Source: Brachyspira pilosicoli
GTDB taxonomy: Bacteria > Spirochaetota > Brachyspiria > Brachyspirales > Brachyspiraceae
Length of the DNA stretch: 64,000 nucleotides
Direction of reading: 5' to 3'
NCBI RefSeq assembly: GCF_036997485.1
Contig: NZ_JAWLPU010000001.1
Coordinates: 806,001 to 870,000 of the forward strand
Under the pieces are notes generated by a model. That model did no database searches, had not been told where the DNA came from, and saw nothing but the letters and a program-made list of their open reading frames with translations. The stretch's first letter is position 1; every line of letters starts with the position of its first letter. Both the position numbers and the translations under genes were made by a program. Shown piece by piece: positions 35,414 through 40,343 of the stretch.

Positions 35414-35773
35414 TTATTCAATAGCCATTAAATATAAACTATATAAATCCTCAGCAACATTATCGGTAGTATCAGGTATACCATTAATTTCTAAAGCATA
35501 AACAACCCAAGATTCATCATTTAATATTTTAAATTGTATAGAAGCTATTTCTCCGTTTATAGTACCATGCATATTGACATAATTCTTACCATCATCAGCA
35601 ACTATCTGCTCCCATTCAACTTCATCAAATATAGTATCTACCATCTCTCCTACTGTAACATCAGGATAAGCATTAAAAGTACCATGTTTAACCATATATA
35701 TATATTCATCTTCTGATGAGCATGATATTATAAGAAAAAATATTGAAACTGTAAAAATAAATAATTTTTTCAT
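35414..35773 (-). CDS. Small lipoprotein, shared VK.G.FN.YP domain (paralogue 1)
   Basis: A 119-residue lipoprotein (signal FFLIISC, lipid Cys at 18). The mature part is a single domain: MVKHGTFNAYPDVTVGEMVD, then VEWEQIVADDGKNYVNMHG and a strand-rich end with SIQFKI and LEINGIP. The same domain occurs in the lipoprotein at 36697 and at the C-terminus of the zinc-ribbon protein at 37090. I recall similar domains in zinc-ribbon proteins of Firmicutes, without known function. It is the last gene of the cluster, before the terminator. Confidence 0.8.
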   Translation of the reverse strand: MKKLFIFTVSIFFLIISCSSEDEYIYMVKHGTFNAYPDVTVGEMVDTIFDEVEWEQIVADDGKNYVNMHGTINGEIASIQFKILNDESWVVYALEINGIPDTTDNVAEDLYSLYLMAIE

Positions 35774-35814
35774 TTTTATATCTTCCTTTAATTATAATTT
35801 TTATATATTAATTA

Positions 35815-36564
35815 TTATTTTTCTTCATGTTTTTTTAAACATTCAAAATCTTTTTTAACTTCATTATCAATAGTAAATACAATGTCATTTCTATTTAAAA
35901 TATTACACATATTTTTTAAAGCATCAATATATTCATTTACATTACCTTTTTTCACAAACTGTGTTGATAATATTCTTTCTCCTTTATCATTAATTAAAGA
36001 TACATTATCAAATTTTCTGCTAGAAAGTAATAAATCAAAAATATTATATCCTAATATAAATGGTATACTATATTTTTCTATTTTTACTTCTTTAATTTCA
36101 GAAATATTAACCTTTTCTTTTAAAAAATTAAATTTCATATTTTTATTAGAAATAATTTGTTTATTTACTAAATCTATAAAAATCCCCTTAGGATTTAAAA
36201 CAGTAATTATAATTAAAGCTGCTATCGACAATAGAATGAAAAATCCCCAATTTGCTTCCCCAAAAATAAATTCAATTATAAAAGCTAAAATAATAGGAAC
36301 TATAAAAGAACCATATTGAAGCCAATTATAGGTTGAATCTAAACCAGATTTAAATCCTTTTATTTTAATATAAAAATTTTTTACATTTAAATTTAAATAA
36401 TTTTGATTAGTATGATGAAATTGAGAATCATTATATGCATTATTATTTTGCATTCGTTCGTTATTCAGTGTATTAGTATTATTGTTAATAATGATACTAT
36501 TTCCGCAATTAGTACAAAATTTTGCCCCATCGTTAATTTGTGTTCCGCATTTTTGACAAAACAT
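35815..36564 (-). CDS. Zinc-ribbon membrane protein (cluster member)
   Basis: A 249-residue protein. Residues 1-22 form a zinc ribbon (CQKC and CTNC), then an Asn-rich linker to about residue 65. Two membrane helices run at about 89-130, and a C-terminal cytoplasmic part is predicted strand-rich. The zinc-ribbon DNA and ribosome site (AAGGAG) are almost identical to those of the gene at 37090. No enzymatic motif. Role unknown; probably a membrane sensor or scaffold working with its neighbours. Confidence 0.75.
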   Translation of the reverse strand: MFCQKCGTQINDGAKFCTNCGNSIIINNNTNTLNNERMQNNNAYNDSQFHHTNQNYLNLNVKNFYIKIKGFKSGLDSTYNWLQYGSFIVPIILAFIIEFIFGEANWGFFILLSIAALIIITVLNPKGIFIDLVNKQIISNKNMKFNFLKEKVNISEIKEVKIEKYSIPFILGYNIFDLLLSSRKFDNVSLINDKGERILSTQFVKKGNVNEYIDALKNMCNILNRNDIVFTIDNEVKKDFECLKKHEEK

Positions 36565-36581
36565 GATTAGACTCCTTAAAA
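36503..36581 (-). repeat. Near-identical zinc-ribbon gene start, copy 1
   Basis: These 79 bases cover the first about 20 codons and the leader of the 35815 gene and match 38123-38201 with four mismatches, although the rest of the two genes is unrelated. Confidence 0.85.
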
Positions 36582-36585
36582 TTTT

Positions 36586-36668
36586 TATTAATTTTTTATT
36601 TTTCAGTTATTTTGTTAAAGTTATATATATCATAAAATATTTATCTAATAATATTCATAAAGCAAATG
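36586..36668 (-). pseudogene. Decayed 3' fragment of a DUF4234-type zinc-ribbon gene
   Basis: The segment matches 39060-39141, the last about 26 codons and stop of the DUF4234-type gene, with about five substitutions and two small indels (roughly 90% identity). The indels break the frame. No upstream part of that gene remains recognisable, so this is a relic left by duplication and deletion between two intact cluster genes. Confidence 0.8.
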
Positions 36669-36696
36669 CTTAGTATTAAAGTACCAATTATTAAAA

Positions 36697-38184: not shown

Positions 38185-38201
38185 AATCAAACTCCTTAAA
38201 A
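38123..38201 (-). repeat. Near-identical zinc-ribbon gene start, copy 2
   Basis: Partner of 36503-36581: same leader, ribosome site and first codons with four mismatches in 79 bases. Confidence 0.85.
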
Positions 38202-38229
38202 AATGTTTTTATATAAATTATTTATATCA

Positions 38230-39039
38230 TCATTCTTTATAATCCTCTTCTATTTCAAATATTTCATCTGCAATAAAAGATATTAGTTTGTTATAATAAG
38301 ATATTGCTTTACTCTCTTCATTATATTTTAGGCAATATACATTTTTTGAAGTCATTATTAGAATACTATTTTCTTCTTTTTTTATTTCTTGAATGCTATT
38401 ACAATTAATATATGTATTTTTTAAAAATAAGTATTTATCTTTATTAGAATGTATGTTCAAATTATTATTTTCTTTTACTTCTTCAGTTTCATTTATTTGA
38501 ATTTTATTTTGATTTTTAAATTTTTCTAATTCTTTGTTAATTTTATATTCAAATAATTTTCCGCTTTCTTTTCCTACATTTTTAATATATTCTGAATTGT
38601 TCAGATGTTCTATTGTAATCTCTACCCCCATTACACCTATAGAAGAAGAAATTTTATTTATATTTTCTAATAATATTGATTTTATTTCTTTAATATGAGT
38701 CAAAATTCCCCATTTTGCTATTATTATTCTTTTTGAAGTTAAAACTATAAGAAGAAAATCGTCTCCAAAAATTGCTGCCCCAGAAATAAAATATATTATG
38801 TTTTCATCATCATTAATTATACATGCAAGTTCATTTATATCTTTATCTGATAATGCTGTATCAGGCTGATCTTTTATAGAATCAATTTGATATTTGAGTT
38901 CTTTGAAATTATTATTCACGGCAATTTGAGCATTATTTTCATTATTAGTTACTGGTTGATTGTTATCAATTAAATTTCCGCAATTAGCACAAAATTTTAC
39001 ATTATCATCATTTTTTGAACCGCAATTTGGACAAAACAT
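38230..39039 (-). CDS. Zinc-ribbon protein with bacterial PH-like domain
   Basis: A 269-residue soluble protein. A zinc ribbon (CPNC and CANC) occupies residues 1-23. After a linker, residues about 75-165 look like a bacterial PH domain (IIYFISGAAIFGDDFLLIVL, TSKRIIIAKWGILTHIKEI, then VEITIEHLNNSEYIKNVG). A second strand-rich segment, LKNTYINCNSIQEIKKEENS, may be another such domain. No membrane helix or catalytic motif. Ribosome site AAGGGG. Bacterial PH-like domains often mediate membrane or protein association under stress. Confidence 0.75.
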   Translation of the reverse strand: MFCPNCGSKNDDNVKFCANCGNLIDNNQPVTNNENNAQIAVNNNFKELKYQIDSIKDQPDTALSDKDINELACIINDDENIIYFISGAAIFGDDFLLIVLTSKRIIIAKWGILTHIKEIKSILLENINKISSSIGVMGVEITIEHLNNSEYIKNVGKESGKLFEYKINKELEKFKNQNKIQINETEEVKENNNLNIHSNKDKYLFLKNTYINCNSIQEIKKEENSILIMTSKNVYCLKYNEESKAISYYNKLISFIADEIFEIEEDYKE

Positions 39040-39061
39040 GATTAAACCCCTTAAGTGTTTA

Positions 39062-39775
39062 TTAATTTTTTATTTTTTCAGTTATTTTATTAAAGTTATA
39101 TATCATAAAATATTGACCTAATAATATTCCTAAACCAAATGTAAATATGGAAGCAATTATAGACCATACTAATACAAATACCCCATCTTGTTTTATATTC
39201 ACCCCAAATTTTTCGCCGGCATTTTTTATTCTGTTTGAATGTTTATACATCCAATAGAAATAATATATTCCAAATGTTATAATAGAAAATATAAGCACCA
39301 ATATTACATTAGGGCTATCTTCATCATCATCACATACCAAATTTAAATCTTTTATATATTTGTGCCAGAAAAATATTGAATATATACCGCTTGTTATAAA
39401 ACTAAAAATTAAATATAGAATGAAACTTCTGCTTTCTTTTATATCTTCAAATTTGCTATTATCATATATTTCTATTGGTTTGTTTACTACATTATAATTT
39501 GCATTATTATATTGATTGCTACTATTAAATTGTGTAGCATTATTGGTGTTATATTGATTGGTACTTCTAAATGATTGATTATTATCTTTTTGTCTATTTG
39601 TATTTCTATTAGCTAATAAACCTCCTTGAAAATTATTTTTCTTCTCCTCAAATTCAGCATTATCTTTTTCCTCAATTATAACAGCTTCTAATGTACCGGC
39701 ATCTATTTTATTACCGCAATTAATACAAAATTTAGCATTGTCATCAACTTGTTTTCCGCAATTAGTACAAAACAT
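39062..39775 (-). CDS. Zinc-ribbon DUF4234-type membrane protein
   Basis: A 237-residue protein; ATG at 39775 has AGGAG 7 bases upstream. Order: zinc ribbon (CTNC and CINC, residues 1-22), a long Asn/Gln-rich linker to about 115, and a DUF4234-like membrane domain with three helices (SRSFILYLIFSFITSGIYSI, then FSIITFGIYYFYWMYKHSNR, and a last helix ending GLGILLGQYFMIYNFN). Its last 26 codons survive as a decayed copy at 36586-36668. Confidence 0.8.
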   Translation of the reverse strand: MFCTNCGKQVDDNAKFCINCGNKIDAGTLEAVIIEEKDNAEFEEKKNNFQGGLLANRNTNRQKDNNQSFRSTNQYNTNNATQFNSSNQYNNANYNVVNKPIEIYDNSKFEDIKESRSFILYLIFSFITSGIYSIFFWHKYIKDLNLVCDDDEDSPNVILVLIFSIITFGIYYFYWMYKHSNRIKNAGEKFGVNIKQDGVFVLVWSIIASIFTFGLGILLGQYFMIYNFNKITEKIKN

Positions 39776-39809
39776 ATTCAAACTCCTAATTTTATATTTT
39801 TAATTAAAT

Positions 39810-40343
39810 TTAGTTATTTTCAAAATATTCAAAAGATTCTTCAAGTAATGTAACCATATTTTGATATGCATTATAATCTAATCCAAAATAATTCCTTGAA
39901 AAATTATAAGATTCATTAATCTCATCATCTGATAATTCAAATCCTTTTTTTATAAGGTAAGTCATAAATAATTTTCCTTCATCTAATTCTCCACAATCAT
40001 TAGGCATGCATCCCAAAATACATGCACATACAAAAAATATTTTTAGCTTATTTCTGTCTATTCTTCCATTTAAAATATCTTCTATAACATCATCAGGATC
40101 ATAACCATTATCACAAATATCTTGATATATCTTCTTTAGTTTTTTATTCATTTGAATAGGTATCATAGGTTCATTGAAAAATATTGTATTATAGAGTTCT
40201 GTTGCTAATTCAATGTCTATTTTTGAAGCAGTATCATTATTAGCATAAGTTAAAAGGCATGCTACTTTAAAAAAACTATCCTTATCATTACTATTAATAG
40301 CTGAATTAATAGCATCATTAATAAAATCCATAAAGCCAGACAT
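39810..40343 (-). CDS. Hypothetical helical protein, first gene of the zinc-ribbon cluster
   Basis: A 177-residue, acidic, all-helical protein without zinc ribbon, signal or membrane segment. The arrangement of helices (KVACLLTYANNDTASKIDIE, KLKIFFVCACILGCMPNDCG) is loosely TerB-like, but the metal-binding acidic pattern is not convincing. Ribosome site AAGGAGA. As the first gene of the unit it lies about 200 bases downstream of the 7-bp tandem repeat. Role unknown. Confidence 0.65.
   Translation of the reverse strand: MSGFMDFINDAINSAINSNDKDSFFKVACLLTYANNDTASKIDIELATELYNTIFFNEPMIPIQMNKKLKKIYQDICDNGYDPDDVIEDILNGRIDRNKLKIFFVCACILGCMPNDCGELDEGKLFMTYLIKKGFELSDDEINESYNFSRNYFGLDYNAYQNMVTLLEESFEYFENN

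Follow-up and report, generated by a model that had tools for sequence, protein, structure and literature searches.

The subject of this article is a cluster of seven genes, and the short tandem repeat that lies upstream of it, in a 64,000-nt stretch of the genome of Brachyspira pilosicoli, which we call the window. The genes, labelled g7 (the first to be transcribed) through to g1 (the last), encode four zinc-ribbon proteins, two lipoproteins and a helical protein. Our reading, to which we give a probability of about 0.6, is that they form an accessory, phase-variable set of envelope genes built from two modules of ribbon proteins. What points to phase variation is a leader open reading frame (ORF) that begins beside a promoter and runs through a perfect array of a 7-nt unit. 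Since 7 is not a multiple of 3, the gain or loss of a unit changes the reading frame that ribosomes are in as they exit the array. Leaders of the same design recur across Brachyspira, a genus that includes pig and human gut pathogens.

A heptad array in a leader reading frame

The array sits between an oppA-like gene and g7, on the minus strand with everything described in this section. The promoter has the form TTGACA-16-TAAAAT (40645..40672), with a TG before the -10 hexamer and 11 of 12 consensus positions, and is conserved in a sister species (genome G012). An ATG 7 nt past the -10 hexamer opens the leader, which as now read comprises 33 codons including its stop (40539..40637). Inside it, Tandem Repeats Finder (TRF) reports 8.7 copies of the sense unit CTACAGT with 100% matches (40546..40606), the eight full units occupying 40546-40601; it reported no other perfect short-unit tandem array in the window. 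With n=8 in the assembled sequence the frame meets a stop just past the array, a state we call OFF. One frame leading out of the array is open for 76 codons (40318..40545), ending 26 nt inside g7, and the other two stop within 7 nt. Two deletions distinguish the spacers of the window and G012, one of 2 nt and one of 1 nt, and jointly they preserve this frame. The spacer also holds, at 40468..40473, the TTGCAT core of a motif conserved in most array loci.

The mechanism we propose runs as follows. The single promoter would give an mRNA whose first codon lies at or next to the transcription start. Ribosomes would translate the leader through (CTACAGT)n, where slippage during replication would add or remove units. 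In one state of three (ON) they would continue for about 200 nt and terminate over the start of the first gene, leaving the mRNA covered and translation coupled. In the other two (OFF) they would stop just past the array, and about 200 nt of naked AU-rich RNA would lie open to Rho-type polarity or decay. Slippage in living cells, and its effect on expression, are thus predictions from the sequence. A hairpin sequestering the Shine-Dalgarno sequence, or a terminator, was sought in the leader and rejected, and an Rfam search gave no useful match.

The same leader across Brachyspira

A pattern search found the heptad array in 16 of the 29 Brachyspiraceae genomes that also served for comparing gene order. 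The longer heptad pattern was confined to Brachyspira, appearing in no other genus among the 168 spirochaete genera sampled, and it was absent from viral contigs. The orientation of the array fits the downstream gene in every case, including all the sites between tandem co-directional genes. Nearly every array with upstream sequence is preceded by a promoter resembling TTGACA-16/17-TATAAT (10-12 of 12 positions), with an ATG 6-10 nt past the -10 hexamer and a short open stretch leading into (CTACAGT)n. The array itself has no stop codon in any frame; beyond it one frame is open to the next start codon, often with the 4-nt overlap ATGA, and the others usually stop quickly. In 14 of 15 gene groups that frame ends no more than 31 nt from the start of the next gene, where dinucleotide shuffles lead one to expect 2.5 (P=4e-15); the figure is 10 of 10 against 1.05 expected in a strict set of ten groups, restricted to spacers of 100 nt or longer and to a single lipoprotein representative (P=1.5e-13); as the 31-nt limit was set after viewing the data and some leaders are homologous, these P values overstate the certainty, but the excess is still large.

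Most spacers carry the TTGCAT motif some 45-110 nt past the array, typically after a T-rich stretch. In several loci it encodes a hydrophobic residue followed by LHK, or LHS, in the open frame, and it could be acting at the level of the peptide or of the RNA. The downstream genes encode mostly lipoproteins (and an OmpA lipoprotein), glycosyltransferases and radical-SAM proteins. Among the loci akin to the ribbon cluster, those of the window, G012, G024, G021 and B. hampsonii have the array; in G004 the leader persists with one heptad copy. Orthologues whose flanks are nearly identical can differ in copy number (nine in B. hampsonii against one in G004), which ranges from 5 to 11 in one lipoprotein group. 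Among 28 loci whose state could be called, seven are ON and 21 OFF, roughly the one third expected with freely drifting copy number. We think it quite probable that uniform cassettes (promoter, leaderless ORF, (CTACAGT)n, TTGCAT spacer and a frame ending at the next start) independently switch envelope genes throughout the genus, the ribbon cluster being one client among them.

Two further array leaders occur in the same genome as the window. One (L164; G000:C2:481060-481122) precedes a gene for a 301-aa protein that has no Pfam match, looks glycosyltransferase-like by eye and is predicted to be ON. The other (L165; G000:C3:329183-329252) precedes a gene for an 848-aa multi-helix protein and is predicted to be OFF.

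Several observations weigh against phase variation, in addition to the post hoc limit and shared leader ancestry just mentioned. Array lengths were read from assemblies, some contigs end inside arrays, and the length differences are those between species. The G022 cluster and the G001 and G003 modules, described below, lack such an array. The gene g7 has a good Shine-Dalgarno sequence of its own, AAGGAG, so the leader may only modulate. The interval between array and g7 has no terminator-like site and no stable structure, its RNA folding worse than shuffles; this is why we lean towards coupled translation, or towards shielding of the mRNA from polarity, and how the OFF state would silence the genes is a guess. 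On the protein side, docking between ribbons and their binding of zinc are putative. Some of these same points (the ribosome-binding site of g7, the lack of any attenuator found, the G022 module without an array) would suit an expression-neutral microsatellite in a non-regulatory leader of a constitutive cluster. We regard this as unlikely: neutrality would not lead one to expect strict orientation, leaderless ATG geometry, a single open frame ending at the gene start and indels that keep the frame, nor an array recurring genus-wide and in none of the other genera sampled.

The array might instead tune transcription, by altering promoter spacing or binding a protein, rather than leader translation. 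Promoter variation driven by simple-sequence repeats is known elsewhere, NadA being an example (PMC2791445), and a TATAAT-like sequence lies 3' of the array in the window. The array is, however, downstream of the best promoter and not between its hexamers, and a spacing model leaves the codon-frame pattern unexplained; we give this possibility little credence. For phase variation through a leader ORF the nearest precedent is the pil1 locus of Streptococcus gallolyticus, where GCAGA repeats alter leader length and hence terminator formation (Danne et al. 2014, PMC3894217). There, as here, short repeats with a unit length not divisible by 3 lie in a leader ORF before a surface operon, with the reading state setting how far ribosomes travel; at the level of sequence the window, too, has a frame-shifting tandem repeat in a leader ORF behind a promoter. 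The differences are that pil1 is a single locus with a 5-nt unit, its leader separated from the genes by an intrinsic terminator, whereas the Brachyspira element has a 7-nt unit and a leaderless ORF that ends at the next start, has no terminator that we could find, and is shared by 15 gene groups. The simple-sequence contingency loci of Haemophilus, Neisseria and Campylobacter likewise have frame-shifting repeats before surface and glycosyltransferase genes, but the Brachyspira repeats are in a separate leader ORF rather than in the regulated gene and use one uniform unit. The Brachyspira form of leader-ORF phase variation is apparently in use at many loci of the genus.

In the open-access literature searched we came upon no account of phase variation driven by repeats in Brachyspira. 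Of nine papers there that mention the genus and phase variation together, two are on Brachyspira itself, and in these phase variation comes up with Vsp proteins, Mycoplasma serving as the model, or in a reference list. If our reading is right, leader-ORF phase variation would be a reusable cassette and not a one-off, and one recognisable element before surface and glycosylation genes would offer a ready catalogue of switchable genes. It would also lend a regulatory context to the ribbon-linked envelope proteins, an otherwise uncharacterised family, and it brings with it the definition of a domain absent from Pfam.

Anatomy of the cluster

An earlier note on this DNA had described seven co-oriented genes, four zinc ribbons of one type joined to different partners, and a domain occurring three times, twice lipid-anchored and once after a membrane helix. 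All of this held up. The array leader with its heptads, the remnant of g6 and a fourth lipoprotein with the shared domain are additions to what it listed. The seven ORFs lie on the minus strand, and the gaps between them are 18-41 nt with one exception of 132 nt. First comes g7 (39810..40343), a helical protein of 177 aa, followed by g6 (39062..39781), in which a zinc ribbon (PF13240, 2.4e-9) is joined to a DUF4234 membrane region (PF14018, 2.4e-28), and g5 (38230..39039), a ribbon (2.7e-8) with a bacterial PH domain (bPH_3, PF14470, 1.1e-9). The next protein, g4 (37090..38190), has a ribbon, a membrane region resembling DUF2628, a final transmembrane (TM) helix and the shared domain, which we call DOM. 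Because its reading opens TTG-ATA-ATG, translation likely begins with the ATG at 38184. Lipoprotein 2, g3 (36697..37071), carries DOM; g2 (35815..36564) has a ribbon, two TM helices and a cytoplasmic domain; and lipoprotein 1, g1 (35414..35773), again carries DOM. Both lipoproteins have a lipobox, with IISC and LISC as the two sequences.

In Pfam the four ribbons at the N termini of g2, g4, g5 and g6 score above the gathering threshold for PF13240 (E 2.7e-8 to 2.4e-9), and each has the CxxC...CxxC pattern of an N-terminal ribbon. The 2.7-Mb genome has just five PF13240 matches, four of them inside the cluster, so the clustering is not due to chance. The middle of g4 did not match PF10947 (DUF2628) in the Pfam scan; its resemblance is a profile similarity only, to a DUF2628-DOM protein and including the second half of DUF2628 (98% probability). 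The full-length structure model of g4 was poor (predicted local distance difference test, pLDDT, 61.5) and was used only for the recurrence of DOM and the helices. PADLOC models of anti-phage defence gave one weak match, at 14 bits. Proteins of the TcaA/YvbJ type share with g4 the general layout of zinc ribbon, TM helix and extracytoplasmic domain, the difference being that the outside domain of g4 is DOM; the NCBIfam TcaA model stayed below its cut-off, matching only the ribbon region of g5 with 16.8 bits against 550.

That layout raises the prospect of an envelope-stress module akin to PSP/Lia or to Bacillus subtilis ydjFGHL, in which PspA occurs together with the ribbon-bearing membrane proteins YdjG and YdjL (PMC11237479). 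In its favour, g4 has the matching arrangement of ribbon, TM helix and extracytoplasmic domain, and SHOCT or bPH_3 proteins are found beside DOM genes in other spirochaetes. A Pfam search of the seven cluster proteins, however, found no PspA, PspC, Toastrack or SHOCT domain, and a phase-variable switch is ill-suited to stress induction. We consider such a module improbable, though less so than the other alternatives weighed here.

Two modules and traces of recombination

The cluster is composed of two modules that are separable in relatives. The first consists of the ribbon-PH protein g5, the ribbon-membrane-DOM protein g4 and the DOM lipoprotein g1, in this order in G022 and G024, and is found in relatives without the other four genes; in G021, g4 is present with a degraded g5. 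These genes adjoin a conserved operon whose functions we take to lie in chemotaxis and cell shape. A single protein of 510 residues combines g5 and g4 in B. hampsonii (L084); its PH part shares 39% identity with g5 (E=5e-19). Fusions of this kind classically count as evidence that two proteins pair physically or functionally, and this one suggests that the ribbon-PH and ribbon-DOM proteins are physically linked. The second module comprises the ribbon-2TM protein g2, the ribbon-DUF4234 protein g6 and the helical protein g7; it occurs in G001 and G003, in a different order from that in the window and with no adjoining DOM genes. In the window the first module is found interleaved with the second.

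The earlier note had proposed that all seven genes form one envelope-spanning system, to be doubted if the genes were scattered in relatives. That scattering is partly what we see, with the first module occurring without the other four genes and the second without neighbouring DOM genes. The part of the proposal that finds support is the arrangement across the envelope (ribbons most likely inside, DOM outside); seven genes as one system do not find it. A complex of seven components could call on co-orientation, the common ribbon and the fusion, but the separable modules and a recombination scar make it a doubtful proposition.

The scar is in the spacer 5' of g2, a decayed copy of the 3' end of a second g6 (36561..36668, minus strand), 88% identical over 109 nt to 39036-39141 (E=4e-35). 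Moreover, the start of g2 matches the g4 reading at 100% over the latter's first 23 residues. From this remnant and these identical ribbon starts we infer that the cluster was put together as ribbon-coding 5' ends and duplicated flanks recombined with one another. Relatives of g7 occur in G001 and G003. In G012 what comes after the same oppA-like gene is a truncated g7 broken by internal stops, near which no further cluster gene was found.

One might then see no more here than the debris of decaying paralogues, ribbon 5' ends recombining and genes drifting without function. The g6 remnant, the broken g7 of G012, the altered start in G004 and the sporadic distribution all have that flavour. Seven ORFs are nevertheless intact in the window, and domains and module order are conserved in other genomes, so we find decay an unpersuasive account.

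Beyond the cluster, a g7-like domain is joined to an array of TPR repeats in a 543-aa protein of G003 (L078:804-2435). A ribbon-VWA protein (L129, G020:C243) lies on a short contig of non-Brachyspira appearance, in a genome whose contamination is listed as 7%.

A domain without a name

Among g4, g3 and g1, DOM gives pairwise E values of about 1e-10 to 1e-20; lipoprotein 2 is 41% identical to lipoprotein 1 (E=1.8e-20) and 34% identical to g4 (6.7e-11). The predicted fold is alpha/beta and confident, with a mean pLDDT of 91.9. DOM has no name or function in Pfam or from structure matches: across 16 members scanned against Pfam no family was matched by more than one (best E 0.003), no PDB fold was found at E<=0.001, and searches of NCBIfam and PADLOC gave nothing significant. 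Matches to a cystatin/ketosteroid-isomerase-like fold (PDB and a viral library) were weak, with best E 0.018-0.066, and were not used.

A fourth DOM lipoprotein is encoded outside the cluster in the same genome (C4:213168), and one DOM lipoprotein is near-universal in Brachyspira. A broader profile found DOM in 37 of 393 spirochaete genomes and 9 of 168 genera, where it is again associated with proteins bearing ribbons or membrane tags. Genome G085 has a ribbon-TM-DOM protein, G111 a DOM protein adjoining a ribbon-PH protein, and G324 a ribbon-TM2-DOM protein next to a second ribbon-TM2 protein; in others, DOM proteins lie near DUF2628, TM2, SHOCT or bPH_3 proteins. Further afield, a plasmid protein of Cytobacillus oceanisediminis (WP_243510251.1) is ribbon-DUF2628-TM-DOM (98% with g4 in hhalign), and a protein of Lachnospira eligens (WP_012740653.1) joins a rhomboid domain to DOM. 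These two share the outside domain of g4, the Cytobacillus protein adding ribbon and multi-helix membrane region, but they are single genes without cluster or array and are annotated by their membrane domain only. With DOM recurring alongside ribbon and membrane proteins in other lineages, the architecture is not unique to the window; on the protein side the cluster combines known parts in a new way and adds one unnamed domain. A contig scan seeded with the plasmid homologue found no relative, and a second scan found Brachyspira only. A consensus of proteobacterial type gave one marginal plasmid match and was dropped.

The rhomboid protease of L. eligens (L068:4137-5294, NC_012780.1), in which DOM is C-terminal, has a GH25 lysozyme and a two-component system as neighbours. 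In three Brachyspira genomes, secreted proteins carry three tandem copies of DOM (L038:9240-10430, L040:2875-4029 and L041:5992-7128), their genes lying between a ruvC-like and a UDP-sugar epimerase-like gene.

Topology and proposed roles

Just before its last helix g4 is strongly basic over roughly residues 205-242, a run that ends in KKKEK. By the positive-inside rule this stretch is cytoplasmic, which puts DOM outside, as in the lipoproteins; ribbons inside and DOM outside is thus the most likely topology. The first hydrophobic segment of g4 is similar to the short segment in DUF2628 and perhaps does not span the membrane; a crossing there would place ribbon and DOM on one and the same side. 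In our model the cytoplasmic ribbons would be docking tags among the ribbon-PH, ribbon-DUF4234, ribbon-2TM and ribbon-membrane-DOM proteins, and DOM would act at the outer face, tethered to the membrane in g4 and held by a lipid anchor in g1 and g3.

Other repeats in the window

Longer repeats also occur in the window. At 32851-33412 there are 102-bp tandem repeats inside a gene for a TPR protein, with more repeats at the counterpart locus in G016. At 60526-61095 a 281-bp tandem duplication holds genes for two near-identical secreted proteins of 83 aa that differ at two residues.

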